DNA of 64,000 nucleotides from Microvirga solisilvae (GTDB lineage: Bacteria > Pseudomonadota > Alphaproteobacteria > Rhizobiales > Beijerinckiaceae), in NCBI RefSeq assembly GCF_022808595.1, contig NZ_JAKUCN010000001.1, forward strand, positions 434,001 through 498,000. Reading direction: 5' to 3'. Positions within the stretch are counted from its first letter, which is position 1. Every line of letters begins with the position of its first letter. Under the pieces are notes generated by a model. That model ran no database searches, had not been told where the DNA came from, and was given only the letters and a program-made list of their open reading frames with translations. This document shows, one piece after another, positions 29,544 through 43,273 of the stretch. The translations under genes were made by a program, and so were the position numbers.

Positions 29544-29587
29544 GTTCCTATTTTGTTCTTGATTTTGGTCCTAACCTTGGCTATAGG
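29544..29587 (+). promoter_or_regulatory. LexA (SOS) box and promoter, element copy 1
   Basis: GTTC (29544-29547), seven bases, then GTTC (29555-29558): the alphaproteobacterial LexA operator GTTC-N7-GTTC. TTGATT (29559-29564) follows directly, then a 17-base spacer and TATAGG (29582-29587). LexA bound here would touch the -35 box. Transcription would run rightward from about 29594. Copy 2 keeps every one of these elements. Confidence 0.65.
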
Positions 29588-29845
29588 TGTTGATGTCCTG
29601 GCTCGATGAGGGGCGCGCTCGCGAGGCGTCGCATGTGTCGGAGCCGGGAGCGGTCCTGGTTCGGTCTCGCAAGCCGGTCCAGGAGGCCCGCCGCTGAAAG
29701 ACGCGGTGTCCGCCTAAAAGAACCGTGCGCGAGGGGCCGTCAGGTTCTTCTCCACTCTCACAGCGAACCGGACGGCCTCTCGCGCCTCCCTCACCCCAAA
29801 CCTCGGGCCACACAAGCCGCGAGGACATTCCCGCTCGCTCTTTCT
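29544..29845 (+). repeat. SOS-promoter repeat element, copy 1 (candidate structured RNA)
   Basis: Shares blocks with 42093-42432: GAGGGGCGCGCTCGCGAGGC, GAGCCGGGAGCGGTCCTG, GCGGTGTCCGCCTAAAA, CCGTGCGCGAGG, GGTTCTTCTC, CGCGAGGACA and CCCGCTCGCTCTT. Arms 29727-29741 and 29771-29785 form a 15-bp stem with one G-U pair. GGTTC/GAACC forms an inner stem. GCGAG (29819-29823) and CTCGC (29834-29838), followed by TCTTTCT, could end the transcript. Known identity: none that I recognise. It could be a small RNA, a MITE-like element or an untranslated gene remnant. Confidence 0.7.
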
Positions 29846-29889
29846 CATCTCGGGGCCGATGCTTTGAGAGGCCGTGTCGTGCAGATACA

Positions 29890-29940: not shown

Positions 29941-30684
29941 CTAAGCCGGCCCTTGCGGCTCGATCACTTTTCCGTCCTGTGTGAAATCGTAGATCTTGCC
30001 GGTCTGATCCCATGAGGGCAGGGCGAGCTTCACGATGTGAGGGGCGAGATCTTCCGGCGTCTTCAGCGTCAACGGATCCTCGCCAGGCATCGCCGCCTTG
30101 CGCATGGAGGTGCGCAGCGGGCCGGGATTGATCAGCATGGTGCGAATGGGCGTCGTCACCGTCTCGGCGGCATAGGTGCGCACGAGCGCTTCGAGGGCGG
30201 CCTTCGAGACGGAATAGACACCCCAATAGGCCTTGTGCTTGTGAGCAGCGCCCGACGTCACGAAGATGGCGCGGCCGGCATCCGAGGCGCGCAGCAACGG
30301 ATCGAAGGAGCGCAGCAGGCGGTAATTCGCCGTGACGTTCACGGTCATCACCTCATCCCAGACCGGCTGGTCGATATGGGCGATGGGCGCGAGTTCGCCG
30401 AGCTGTCCCGCATTGCCGAGGAGGATGTCGAGCTTGCCCCAGCGCTCGTAGATCGCGGCGCCCAGGCGGTCGATGGCGTCGAGGTCCTTCAGGTTCACCG
30501 GCACGAGGGTGGCGGACGAGCCCCTGGCGCGGATTTCGTCGTCGAGGCTCTCAAGCGCTCCTTGCGTGCGGGCGAGCGCGATGATGTGCGCGCCGGCTTC
30601 CGCCAATGCGAGCGCTGCCGCGCGGCCGATGCCGCGCGATGCGCCGGTGACGACCGCGACGCGGTTTGCGAGAGGCTTTTCCAT
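29941..30684 (-). CDS. SDR family NAD(P)-dependent oxidoreductase
   Basis: A 247-residue classical short-chain dehydrogenase. The cofactor motif is TGASRGIG (residues 14-21), NAG lies in LGNAGQLGEL, the catalytic Ser in FVTSGAAHK, and the Tyr-Lys pair in YSVSKAALEAL. The Ala/Gly-rich N-terminus and lack of further signatures leave the substrate open. It lies 9 bases downstream of purF, so it is co-transcribed with the purine gene, an arrangement I recall from related Rhizobiales. Confidence 0.88.
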   Translation of the reverse strand: MEKPLANRVAVVTGASRGIGRAAALALAEAGAHIIALARTQGALESLDDEIRARGSSATLVPVNLKDLDAIDRLGAAIYERWGKLDILLGNAGQLGELAPIAHIDQPVWDEVMTVNVTANYRLLRSFDPLLRASDAGRAIFVTSGAAHKHKAYWGVYSVSKAALEALVRTYAAETVTTPIRTMLINPGPLRTSMRKAAMPGEDPLTLKTPEDLAPHIVKLALPSWDQTGKIYDFTQDGKVIEPQGPA

Positions 30685-37099: not shown

Positions 37100-38593
37100 T
37101 CAATCGCCGATCCGTTCGGGTAGCTTGTCTTCGTCTGCGAGGTTGGTGAAGCGGGTGATGTCGGCCTGGAACGCGAGCTGCACGGTGCCGGTGGGACCGT
37201 GACGCTGCTTGCCGATGATCACCTCGGCCTTGCCATGAACCTGGTCCATCTCCGCCTGCCACTTGAAGTATTCTTCGGTGCCGGGCTTCGGCTCCTTGTT
37301 CTTGAGGTAATACTCTTCGCGGTAGACGAACATCACCACGTCGGCGTCCTGCTCGATCGAGCCCGATTCACGAAGGTCGGAAAGCTGCGGCCGTTTGTCG
37401 TCGCGCGATTCCACCTGACGGGAGAGCTGGGAGAGCGCGATCAGCGGCACAGACAATTCCTTGGCGAGCGCCTTCAGGCCCGTGGTGATCTCGGTCAGTT
37501 CTTGCACGCGGTTGTCGCCCTTCTTGCCGGAGCCTGAGAGCAGCTGGAGGTAGTCCACGATGAGCACATCGAGACCACGCTGGCGCTTGAGACGCCGGGC
37601 GCGGGCCGTGAGCTGCGCAATCGAGATGCCGCCGGTTTGGTCGATATAGAAAGGGATCGACTGCATTTCACGGGCGGCTTCCGTGATCTTGTAGAAATCG
37701 TCCTCGCGCATATCGCCGCGGCGGATCTTGTAGGACGGAACGCCCGATTGCTCCGCGATGATACGGGTGGCGAGCTGTTCCGCCGACATTTCGAGCGAGA
37801 AGAAGCCGACGATGCCGCCATTGACGGTTTTCATCGTGCCGTCCTGCTGCTTCTCGGCCTTGTAAGCCTTGGCGATGTTGAACGCGATGTTCGTCACAAG
37901 TGAGGTCTTACCCATCGCCGGGCGGCCGGCGAGGATGACAAGGTCGGAAGGCTGAAGGCCGCCGAGAGACTTGTCGAGGTCGATCAGCCCCGTCGAAACG
38001 CCGGACAGGGCGCCTTCGCGCTTATAGGCGGCGGCCGCCATGTCGATGGCGGCGGTGAGCGCATCGGAGAAGCGCTGGAAGCCGCCATCGGTGCGGCCCG
38101 TCTCCGCGATGGAGTACAGGCGGCGCTCCGCTTCCTCGATCTGGTCGCGGGGCGAGCTGTCGACAGGCGCGTCGAAGGCGTTGTTGACGACGTCCTCGCC
38201 GATATTGATCAGGCTGCGGCGGATCGCGAGGTCGTAGATCGTGCGGCCGTAATCCTCGGCGTTGATGACGGTGGTCGCTTCCGCGGCGAGGCGGGCGAGA
38301 TATTGCGAAACGGTGATGCCGCCGAGATCCTGGTCGCCGAGGAAGGTCTTCATCGTGATCGGAGTCGCGACCTTGCCGGCCTTGATGAGGCCGGTGGCGA
38401 CTTCATAGATGCGACGGTGCAGATCCTCGATGAAATGCTCCGCTTCGAGGAAGTCCGAGACGCGGTAATAGGCGTCGTTGTTGACCAGCATCGCGCCCAG
38501 CAGAGCCTGTTCGGCTTCGATGTTGCTCGGAGGCGTGCGGAACTGCGGCTCTGCGGTCTCTAAGCGGGCGATCAGGGCATTGGCGGTGGCCAT
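37100..38593 (-). CDS. dnaB: Replicative DNA helicase DnaB
   Basis: A 497-residue hexameric 5'-3' helicase. An N-terminal primase-interaction domain (NIEAEQALLGAML) is followed by a RecA-like domain with Walker A AGRPAMGKTS, Walker B VLIVDYLQLL and the DnaB motif SQLSRQVESRDDKRPQLSDL. No intein is present. It lies downstream of rplI, with a terminator between (38779-38814), and upstream of alr, whose possible TTG start overlaps its stop. Confidence 0.97.
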   Translation of the reverse strand: MATANALIARLETAEPQFRTPPSNIEAEQALLGAMLVNNDAYYRVSDFLEAEHFIEDLHRRIYEVATGLIKAGKVATPITMKTFLGDQDLGGITVSQYLARLAAEATTVINAEDYGRTIYDLAIRRSLINIGEDVVNNAFDAPVDSSPRDQIEEAERRLYSIAETGRTDGGFQRFSDALTAAIDMAAAAYKREGALSGVSTGLIDLDKSLGGLQPSDLVILAGRPAMGKTSLVTNIAFNIAKAYKAEKQQDGTMKTVNGGIVGFFSLEMSAEQLATRIIAEQSGVPSYKIRRGDMREDDFYKITEAAREMQSIPFYIDQTGGISIAQLTARARRLKRQRGLDVLIVDYLQLLSGSGKKGDNRVQELTEITTGLKALAKELSVPLIALSQLSRQVESRDDKRPQLSDLRESGSIEQDADVVMFVYREEYYLKNKEPKPGTEEYFKWQAEMDQVHGKAEVIIGKQRHGPTGTVQLAFQADITRFTNLADEDKLPERIGD

Positions 38594-38814: not shown

Positions 38815-38864
38815 ATTTTGGAACAAAGCGCGAACTTGAGCAAGGCTCAGGTTCGCGTCAGGTC

Positions 38865-41702: not shown

Positions 41703-41898
41703 GGGCCTGGAAGCGGAAAGCGATACTAGATAACGCTTGTATGGATTCAGGGCTTCTGCTGCAAATTCTTTATGGTTGACGAGAGGCGTAAACGGTCGTC
41801 GTTGCGAAGAACCCGGCCATGGCGGGAGACAATTGGCGTCCTCCCGGGGCTGCGGAGCAGAACCCGGGATCGCGTGACGCGTATGGCACGGGATCATC

Positions 41899-42021
41899 AC
41901 CTCTCCCTCAGGGAGAGGTCGGACCGTCAGGTCCGGGTGAGGGGTTACAGCCTTCTCCGGATTACGCGCATCCCTCACCCGCCGCACTGACGCGCGTCGA
42001 CCTCTCCCGCCCGGGAGAGGT
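41899..42021. repeat. Multi-hairpin palindromic intergenic repeat
   Basis: ACCTCTCCC-TCA-GGGAGAGGT (41899-41919) and ACCTCTCCC/GGGAGAGGT (42000-42021) are two similar hairpins. Between them lie GGACC-GTCA-GGTCC (41921-41934) and the pair GGGTGAGGG (41935-41943) with CCCTCACCC (41972-41980). This composite form recurs in Rhizobiales intergenic DNA (from general knowledge). Function unknown. Confidence 0.7.
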
Positions 42022-42092
42022 GAGCCAGCGCCTTATCCGGCTCGCGATCCCGGCTCGGCTTTCGCCGCCCGGGAGGACGCCGGGTGGATCAT

Positions 42093-42136
42093 GTTCCGCA
42101 TTTGTTCTTGACTTTGGTCCTAAGCTCGGCCATATT
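42093..42136 (+). promoter_or_regulatory. LexA (SOS) box and promoter, element copy 2
   Basis: GTTC (42093-42096), seven bases, GTTC (42104-42107), then TTGACT (42108-42113), a 17-base spacer and CATATT (42131-42136). The seven-base spacer differs from copy 1 at three positions, while all eight box bases are unchanged. Confidence 0.65.
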
Positions 42137-42432
42137 GAGCTTGTCCCGGCTCACCGAGGGGCGCGCTCGCGAGGCGTCGTGATTGTGGAGCCGGGAGCGG
42201 TCCTGCGGATGCGGCTTCACGCAAGCCCGCCGGCAGGAGGCCGCCCGCAGGTCGCAAGAGCCATCCTTGGGACGGCTGCGGTGTCCGCCTAAAAAAGCCG
42301 TGCGCGAGGAGCCGTCGGGTTCTTCTCTCACTCCACACCGAGCCGGACGCTTCCTCGCGCCCCCTCGATCCCAAAACCTCGGAGCAACACGCTCGCGAGG
42401 ACACTTCTACATGCCTTTGCCCGCTCGCTCTT
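42093..42432 (+). repeat. SOS-promoter repeat element, copy 2 (candidate structured RNA)
   Basis: Homologous to 29544-29845 in the same order, with a longer middle part (about 42205-42280). Stem arms 42302-42316 and 42346-42360 pair at 14 of 15 positions (one C-C mismatch, one G-U). Relative to copy 1, the ninth pair changed from G-C to A-U. GCGAG (42395-42399) and CTCGC (42424-42428) close the 3' end. The predicted transcript would start near 42143 and point toward pdxJ. Confidence 0.7.
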
Positions 42433-42514
42433 CGATAGGCCTTGAGCCTGAAGAGGCTTAACCTGACATCATGAGGGCCTAGGAAATGAGCCGCCCTCTG
42501 CTACAAACGGTTTC

Positions 42515-43273
42515 ATGAAAGCTCTTCCTCTTCGCCTCGGCGTCAATATCGATCACGTTGCAACCGTCCGGAACGCGCGGGGCGGACACAATCCCGATCC
42601 CATTCGTGCGGCCAACATGGCGGTTCTCGCCGGGGCCGACGGCATCACCGCCCATCTGCGCGAGGATCGCCGGCATATTCGCGATGAGGATATGGAGCGG
42701 TTGAAGCGCAACCTGTTCGTGCCGCTCAATTTCGAGATGGCAGCGACCCCCGAGATGGTCGAGATCGCCCGGCGCATCCATCCTCATGCCTGCTGCCTCG
42801 TGCCGGAAAAGCGGGAGGAGCGAACCACGGAGGGCGGGCTCGACATCATCGGCGGCGCTTCCCATCTGCGTCCGGTGATTCAAGAACTCAAAGGCGAGGG
42901 CATCCGCGTGTCTCTCTTCGTAGAGCCCGAAATCGACGTCATGGCAGCGGCAGCCGAACTCGGCGCGCCCGTGGTCGAGCTTCATACCGGCACTTATTGC
43001 GAGGCTTTCGTCGCGGGCGACGAGGCCAAGGTGGCCCATGAGCTGGAGCGCCTGCGCAGGGCCGCCGCCCATGGGGCCGGGCTCGGTCTCGAGATCCATG
43101 CGGGTCACGGACTGGACCTCAACTCGGTCCGCCCGGTCGCCGCGATCTCGCAGATCGTGGAACTGAATATCGGCCATTCGCTGATCGGCGAGGCGATCTT
43201 CATGGGTCTCGACGAGGCCGTGCGCGCCATGCGCGCCGCCATGGACGAGGGCCGGGCACAGGTGGCCGCATGA
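42515..43273 (+). CDS. pdxJ: Pyridoxine 5'-phosphate synthase
   Basis: A 252-residue TIM-barrel enzyme that condenses 3-amino-1-hydroxyacetone phosphate with deoxyxylulose 5-phosphate to form pyridoxine 5'-phosphate. [18 protein letters not shown] at the N-terminus and [14 protein letters not shown] are the conserved active-site stretches. [13 protein letters not shown] near residue 193 binds phosphate. The stop overlaps acpS by ATGA. First gene of pdxJ-acpS-lepB-rnc-era. Confidence 0.97.

Follow-up and report, generated by a model that had tools for sequence, protein, structure and literature searches.

Two copies of one repeat lie in the 64,000-nucleotide stretch of Microvirga solisilvae DNA analysed here (the window), each opening with a LexA-type operator set directly against a promoter-like pair of hexamers. 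Are they members of a family of SOS-controlled small RNAs, copies of a mobile element that carries an SOS promoter, or something else? The first two answers were those of the original prediction. Re-reading the sequence returned the positions it had given for the box, -35 hexamer, spacer and -10 hexamer of both copies, and the same differences at three of the seven N7 positions. The predicted starts stood as well, but the element is somewhat longer than had been proposed (about 29544-29847 and 42093-42437). The copies and their parts are:

29544..29847, + strand: copy 1 of the element, from LexA box to degenerate boxA; ORF-less, with an SDR gene beside it
29544..29558, + strand: putative LexA-type operator of copy 1, GTTCCTATTTTGTTC, assigned by sequence
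29559..29587, + strand: predicted promoter of copy 1 (TTGATT 29559-29564, 17-base spacer, TATAGG 29582-29587)
29597..29648, + strand: hairpin P1 of copy 1 (arms 29597-29604 and 29641-29648); 7 of 8 P1 pairs changed on both sides
29608-29630, + strand: near-invariant motif GAGGGGCGCGCTCGCGAGGCGTC, enclosed by P1 of copy 1
29652..29688, + strand: hairpin P2 of copy 1 (GGTCCTGG ... CCAGGAGGCC), from RNAalifold and pair counts
29712..29786, + strand: GCCTAAAAGAACCG and long 3' hairpin of copy 1 (GTGCGCGAGG 29725-29734 ... CCTCTCGCGCC 29776-29786)
29801..29824, + strand: terminal hairpin of copy 1, 5' of boxA; 6 of 7 pairs changed on both sides
29837..29847, + strand: degenerate boxA of copy 1, GCTCTTTCTCA
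29941..30684, - strand: SDR-family gene beside copy 1; site of an ORF-bearing copy in two relatives
42093..42437, + strand: copy 2 of the element, one of a three-copy subfamily of this genome
42093..42107, + strand: putative LexA-type operator of copy 2, GTTCCGCATTTGTTC, likewise from sequence
42108..42136, + strand: predicted promoter of copy 2 (TTGACT 42108-42113, 17-base spacer, CATATT 42131-42136)
42145..42195, + strand: hairpin P1 of copy 2, with the near-invariant motif at 42156-42178
42199..42242, + strand: hairpin P2 of copy 2
42287..42361, + strand: GCCTAAAAAAGCCG and long 3' hairpin of copy 2
42427..42437, + strand: degenerate boxA of copy 2, GCTCTTCGATA
42515..43273, + strand: pdxJ, the gene downstream of copy 2

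The repeat within the window amounts to 79% identity across 98 bases. The boxA is degenerate in both copies, its intact form being found in neither, and a search behind both for the open reading frame (ORF) of a small four-cysteine protein found at other copies (the Cys4 protein, below) detected none. Directly upstream of copy 2, at 41895-42085, lie palindromic dispersed repeats of two kinds (CACCTCTCCC...GGGAGAGGTC and GATCCCGGCTCGGC...CCCGGGAGGACG); a repeat related to the second is also found ahead of most copies in this genome.

A whole-genome search with copy 1 showed that the repeat is real but numbers 22 copies in this genome (labelled G000), not two. Identity to copy 1 is 79-93% for 18 of them and 71-74% for three, copy 2 included. 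Two more strong boxes each lie 39 bases from a contig end (C4 and C22), and the true count may therefore be 24. The C4 locus (L338) consists of a box and a promoter-like stretch cut by the contig end, and is perhaps another copy, as is the start of C22. Across the genus, the element pattern matched 36 of 48 genomes, with copy numbers of 1-33 and a median of 11.5 among the 36. The 12 genomes with no pattern match, at least two of which (G004, G052) hold a diverged copy, count against an SOS-controlled RNA. Three Microvirga genomes lacking the pattern (G058, G007, G048) also gave no matches when scanned with the covariance model described below; the element is therefore dispensable.

All 22 copies in the M. 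solisilvae genome carry GTTC-N7-GTTC followed by a -35/-10 pair, and in 21 of them TTGAC stands directly behind the box; copy 1 has TTGAT. The original prediction had demanded the box of any further copies. A motif in the element body was searched in six other genomes (G016, G013, G060, G049, G015, G018), yielding 123 matches, and 30 of these were made into loci, five per genome. Retrieved through the body motif only, these 30 loci carry the box without exception. In a larger pool of 178 distinct copies, 177 of which had enough 5' sequence, the box was present in 172, placed 60-69 bases 5' of the body motif, with TTGAC immediately after it in 164 of the 172. The figure of 172/177 is a count rather than a probability, because the copies are related and came into the pool by several routes: the body motif, the protein, and BLAST with a query that included the box. 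The five copies without it are L136, L231, L187, L262 and L277, the first two being near-identical.

By itself GTTC-N7-GTTC is weak: four occur in the window against 1.48 expected, and 5 of 100 shuffles reach as many, so we rejected the bare box as proof. The fuller form GTTCNNNNTTTGTTC occurs 36 times in the M. solisilvae genome (once in the reversed control), 22 times in elements, twice at contig ends and 12 times elsewhere. Among the latter 12 are sites beside a Y-family DNA polymerase gene, ssb (single-stranded DNA-binding protein) and a TIGR03916 repair-linked radical-SAM gene; the remaining sites adjoin genes with no evident tie to repair. The window holds another strong LexA-type box, GTTCGCGCTTTGTTC (38821-38835, - strand), about 230 bases before dnaB (37100-38593, - strand); the gene ahead of this box is presumably rplI-like. 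GTTC-N7-GTTC is given as the LexA motif of Alphaproteobacteria in the sections available from three papers (PMC6237742, PMC3323433, PMC8565304), and in the element it abuts the promoter and is conserved over copies, as predicted for a LexA regulon member. In Caulobacter, the consulted part of one of these papers places no SOS box near the starts of mitomycin-induced sRNAs (PMC6237742).

Does the body downstream of the promoter encode a structured RNA? From 74 distinct copies, 53 were aligned for the 5' part and 47 for the 3' part; in five of these copies the 3' anchor was missing. RNAalifold folded these alignments into P1, an inner hairpin around the near-invariant motif, P2, the long 3' hairpin and the terminal hairpin, with 95.8% (5' part) and 95.9% (3' part) of the relevant cells paired. 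Changes on both sides of a pair numbered 102 cells in the 5' part and 81 in the 3' part, compared with shuffled means of 33 and 35 and with maxima of 29 and 10 in the slid controls, against which the folds are favoured, having been derived from the alignments that were counted. For one of five measures of the 5' part, the number of pairs changed at both positions, 21 of 500 shuffles came up to the observed value. The inner hairpin barely varies and is uninformative on covariation either way. Compensatory changes thus exceed both shuffled and slid controls, as in a structured RNA. The window gave no Rfam match at gathering score; by E-value there were sub-threshold matches alone, to eukaryotic microRNA, small nucleolar and archaeal sRNA families.

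Taken together, the 22 copies, the conservation of the box, the covariation and the lack of an Rfam match point to a multicopy family of structured non-coding RNA genes under a LexA-type operator, and we put the probability that the element is such an SOS-controlled family at about 80%; partner and target lie outside this claim. The RNA would be about 250-400 nt long, and each locus would be a gene. Thus the first of the two answers offered originally gains support from copy number, from conservation of box and promoter, and from covariation, and the mobile-element alternative emerges weaker. A chance repeat or decayed coding sequence, which the near-chance frequency of the bare box in the window might suggest, is contradicted by the copy number, the conservation of the box and the covariation, and we find it scarcely credible. 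We found no published description of the element in the open-licence literature, and no open-licence paper that joins Microvirga with the SOS response and LexA.

At its 3' side, conservation ends at GCTCTTTGACA, a boxA-type motif present in 16 of the 22 M. solisilvae copies. The form GCTCTTTGAYA has 18 sites in this genome, 16 in elements and two at contig ends, where the sequence resembles that found 5' of 16S genes in G016 and G049. In the pool, 92 of 147 ORF-less copies lie within one mismatch of GCTCTTTGACA (67 exact, 25 with one mismatch), against 0 of 147 in the reversed control and 0 of 26 ORF-bearing copies. The element occurs in another family of the order as well (G283, below), where GCTGTTTGACA is found in five of the seven copies complete at their 3' part (L374, L394, L395, L391, L400) and is missing from L386 and L361; 11 more copies are cut short where their contig stops. 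The same GCTGTTTGACA stands in the rRNA leader of G283, so that element boxA and rRNA-leader boxA are identical in G283, as they are in M. solisilvae; the rRNA boxA of G016 and G049, GTTCTTTGACA, is one base off the element form. The gamma-proteobacterial consensus, as given in the portion available from one study, is GYTCTTTAANA (PMC5725501).

This identity raises the question of whether the element is an RNA sponge, its boxA transcripts binding NusB-S10 (and SuhB) and thereby slowing rRNA synthesis during the SOS response. A genome with just two GCTCTTTGAYA sites outside its elements, and a copy number high enough for titration, would suit a sponge; however, 55 of the 147 ORF-less copies have no boxA within one mismatch, and a sponge leaves the conserved 5' fold unexplained, which makes this role quite doubtful. 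The same 55 copies, and the want of an intact boxA in either window copy, also count against the SOS-controlled RNA family that we prefer. For that family, boxA would recruit NusB-S10 and let the untranslated transcript escape Rho.

Some copies lead into a gene. Two in the M. solisilvae genome run into one for a protein of 87-96 aa with four conserved cysteines, the Cys4 protein, for which neither Pfam nor NCBIfam returned a match up to E = 1. Among the homologues listed (57 in one search, 120 of 131 in another, most with no taxon), every named taxon is Microvirga. The protein is encoded in 35 of the 48 genus genomes: in 30 of 30 with three or more copies of the element and in 5 of 18 with fewer (P = 4e-8, a value computed over related genomes that are not independent). 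Thirty protein loci were read, of which two lacked the search motif and one had too little upstream sequence. Among the 27 testable loci, 24 have the body motif 413-521 bases 5' of the CxGGYGPPC codons and 23 have an SOS box. An AlphaFold model (mean pLDDT 69, pTM 0.46) was not good enough to be compared with known folds. Where copy 1 stands in M. solisilvae, next to the SDR gene, ORF-bearing copies are found in G004 (L036, L279 and presumably L176) and Microvirga sp. BSC39 (L150), and copy 1 may therefore stand at an old ORF site; M. arsenatis has an ORF-less copy there (L153).

We found no fixed downstream gene apart from the Cys4 gene, the neighbours belonging to many unrelated families. 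Copies with neither boxA nor Cys4 ORF have a co-directional gene next to them at 28 of 37 sites, compared with 26 of 53 for boxA copies (P = 0.016, or 0.006 counting each site by majority), the neighbour gene calls coming from a codon-usage script that miscalled the gene beside copy 1. This contrast, and the position of the body motif 413-521 bases ahead of the Cys4 codons at 24 of 27 loci, would be expected if the element were a cis-acting SOS promoter and leader for the downstream gene, its RNA working as an attenuator or antiterminator. Such a leader is at odds with the boxA copies, which face their neighbours at random, with the variety of downstream genes and with copy 1, which faces a convergent gene; we judge it improbable. 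Under the RNA-family reading, the untranslated transcript would be finished in one of two ways, by running into a translated gene or by loading antitermination factors at boxA, and copies that lead into a gene could dispense with boxA because translation would protect them.

Two features of genomic layout were set aside. Polarity relative to the replication strand was dropped, since the GC skew sampled in 20-kb pieces from G016 and G000 was weak and orientation in G016 is mixed; in G000, neighbouring copies on one contig are co-oriented in 12 of 13 pairs. Nor do we claim that copies are regularly spaced: their distribution exceeds chance evenness in G016 (CV 0.50; 0 of 20,000 simulations as low), is borderline in G060 (P 0.07) and does not exceed it in G049 (0.53).

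Comparison of sites revealed both persistence and turnover. Several sites, including one before gyrA and another at what we take to be metX, are common to different species, with matching genes on both sides. At the metX site, L012 (G000) and L102 (G060) have the same flanking genes and opposite element orientations. Between species, copies that occupy the same site have an identity of 0.34-0.58, roughly the level seen for copies from different sites. With duplicate loci removed, the median identity within a genome was 0.83 in G000 (22 copies), 0.91 in G015 (5), 0.82 in G016 (7 of 33), 0.71 in G049 (5) and 0.97 in G060 (5), but 0.36 in G018 (5); between genomes the median was 0.55 and the highest value 0.79. 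This excess of within-genome over between-genome identity argues that copies have been homogenised in five of the six genomes, whether through gene conversion or through replacement that recurred. That the G018 copies are unalike weighs against the SOS-controlled RNA reading. Presence was also compared at pdxJ, where an element lies within 1500 bases upstream in 4 of 30 genomes examined (G000, G057, G044, G015), so sites turn over.

Turnover of this kind is what a non-autonomous mobile element with an SOS promoter would produce if the Cys4 protein or some other factor moved it in trans, as in REPIN-RAYT systems. The range of copy numbers among the 36 positive genomes, the opposite orientation at one shared site, the similarity of copies within a genome and the occurrence of the Cys4 protein wherever a genome has at least three copies all fit such an element. 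They have to be set against a conserved unit bounded by LexA box and boxA, sites common to different species, and a search of 72,556 plasmid and 50,697 phage records with copy 1 and a G283 copy that returned no match. Moreover, all 33 copies in G016 are on C1, the 4.97-Mb main chromosome of a 7.3-Mb genome, and the contigs without copies include one that bears an rRNA operon. The Cys4 protein, matching no Pfam or NCBIfam family, does not appear to be a transposase-like partner of the REPIN-RAYT kind. On balance we consider mobility in trans an unlikely explanation.

How old is the association with LexA? Under strict filters, we scanned 249 genomes of the order, from 112 genera, with a covariance model that covered the 5' part and its promoter. 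Five matched, among them M. solisilvae itself, G098 and three of other families. The G098 match turned out to be an SOS-type promoter before another gene, presumably Mg-chelatase-like, rather than the RNA, and is not counted. A rerun in the other families gave 24 matches in G283, 7 in G260 and 5 in G039. Thirty loci were fetched from these three genomes, and two were left out (L384, anchor misplaced; L375, no anchor). An SOS box was found at one of the 28 loci read, L365 of G283. G283 and G260 each have their own shared upstream sequence.

With a box at 1 of 28 loci outside Microvirga, SOS control looks like a Microvirga addition. The RNA core seems to predate SOS control, if the box was not lost elsewhere. 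Because the core elsewhere mostly has no box, the RNA can do without SOS control, a point that also tells against reading the element as an SOS-controlled RNA. At L365, the LexA-type box GTTCATGATTTGTTC lies near position 1500, where its paralogues share AAACATTTTTTCCTAT instead; the box is possibly an independent gain of SOS control. The picture would be one of regulatory rewiring, with one RNA core in four families of the order and, in one of these families, an SOS box at almost every copy.

For the Microvirga copies of this RNA family, a sigma-70-type promoter would abut a LexA-type operator, and DNA damage should therefore switch on some 20 loci at once, provided that LexA binds there and damage induces transcription. 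The RNA may act in trans, probably with the Cys4 protein, its many loci supplying a large dose quickly. Our first choice of role is that of an RNA acting in trans alongside this protein; among the alternatives, a titration of Nus factors lends itself best to testing. Tentatively, and at less than even odds, we propose the fuller scheme: an older dispersed RNA family was put under LexA, so that on damage about 20-30 loci launch Nus-antiterminated transcripts that work with the Cys4 protein, forming a separate RNA arm of the SOS response. On the genomic evidence, the family has the look of an arm of the bacterial response to DNA damage that has so far gone undescribed. Should induction be confirmed, a coordinated burst of one structured RNA would form part of the SOS response in these soil bacteria.

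How does this family compare with known systems? No RNA family known to us unites all four traits seen here: an operator of the LexA type, a 3' end at an rRNA-type boxA, copies by the tens on the chromosome and a small protein associated with them. Put cautiously, the element could be classed as an SOS-controlled sRNA of a new sort. REPIN-RAYT systems pair a dispersed repeat with a protein gene, with many chromosomal copies and one to three protein genes per genome. The element resembles them in both numbers; unlike them, it appears to have its own promoter and operator, measures about 300 nt, ends in boxA and is accompanied by a protein with no Pfam or NCBIfam family. With the alphaproteobacterial LexA regulon it shares, by sequence, the operator and its place at a promoter, whereas the members known to us there are protein genes. 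Enterobacterial SOS-induced sRNA and type I toxin-antitoxin loci are single or few. In the present family a genome may have as many as 33 copies, the fold is larger, and the Cys4 protein stands in place of a hydrophobic peptide. Like the enterobacterial loci (compare PMC10907235, PMC1891008), it would place a small RNA or small-protein locus under LexA control. Finally, the boxA motif follows a hairpin, as in rRNA boxA/Nus antitermination and the E. coli suhB leader described in the available part of PMC5725501; unlike the boxA sites that precede 16S, 23S or suhB, that of the element ends a dispersed non-coding unit.
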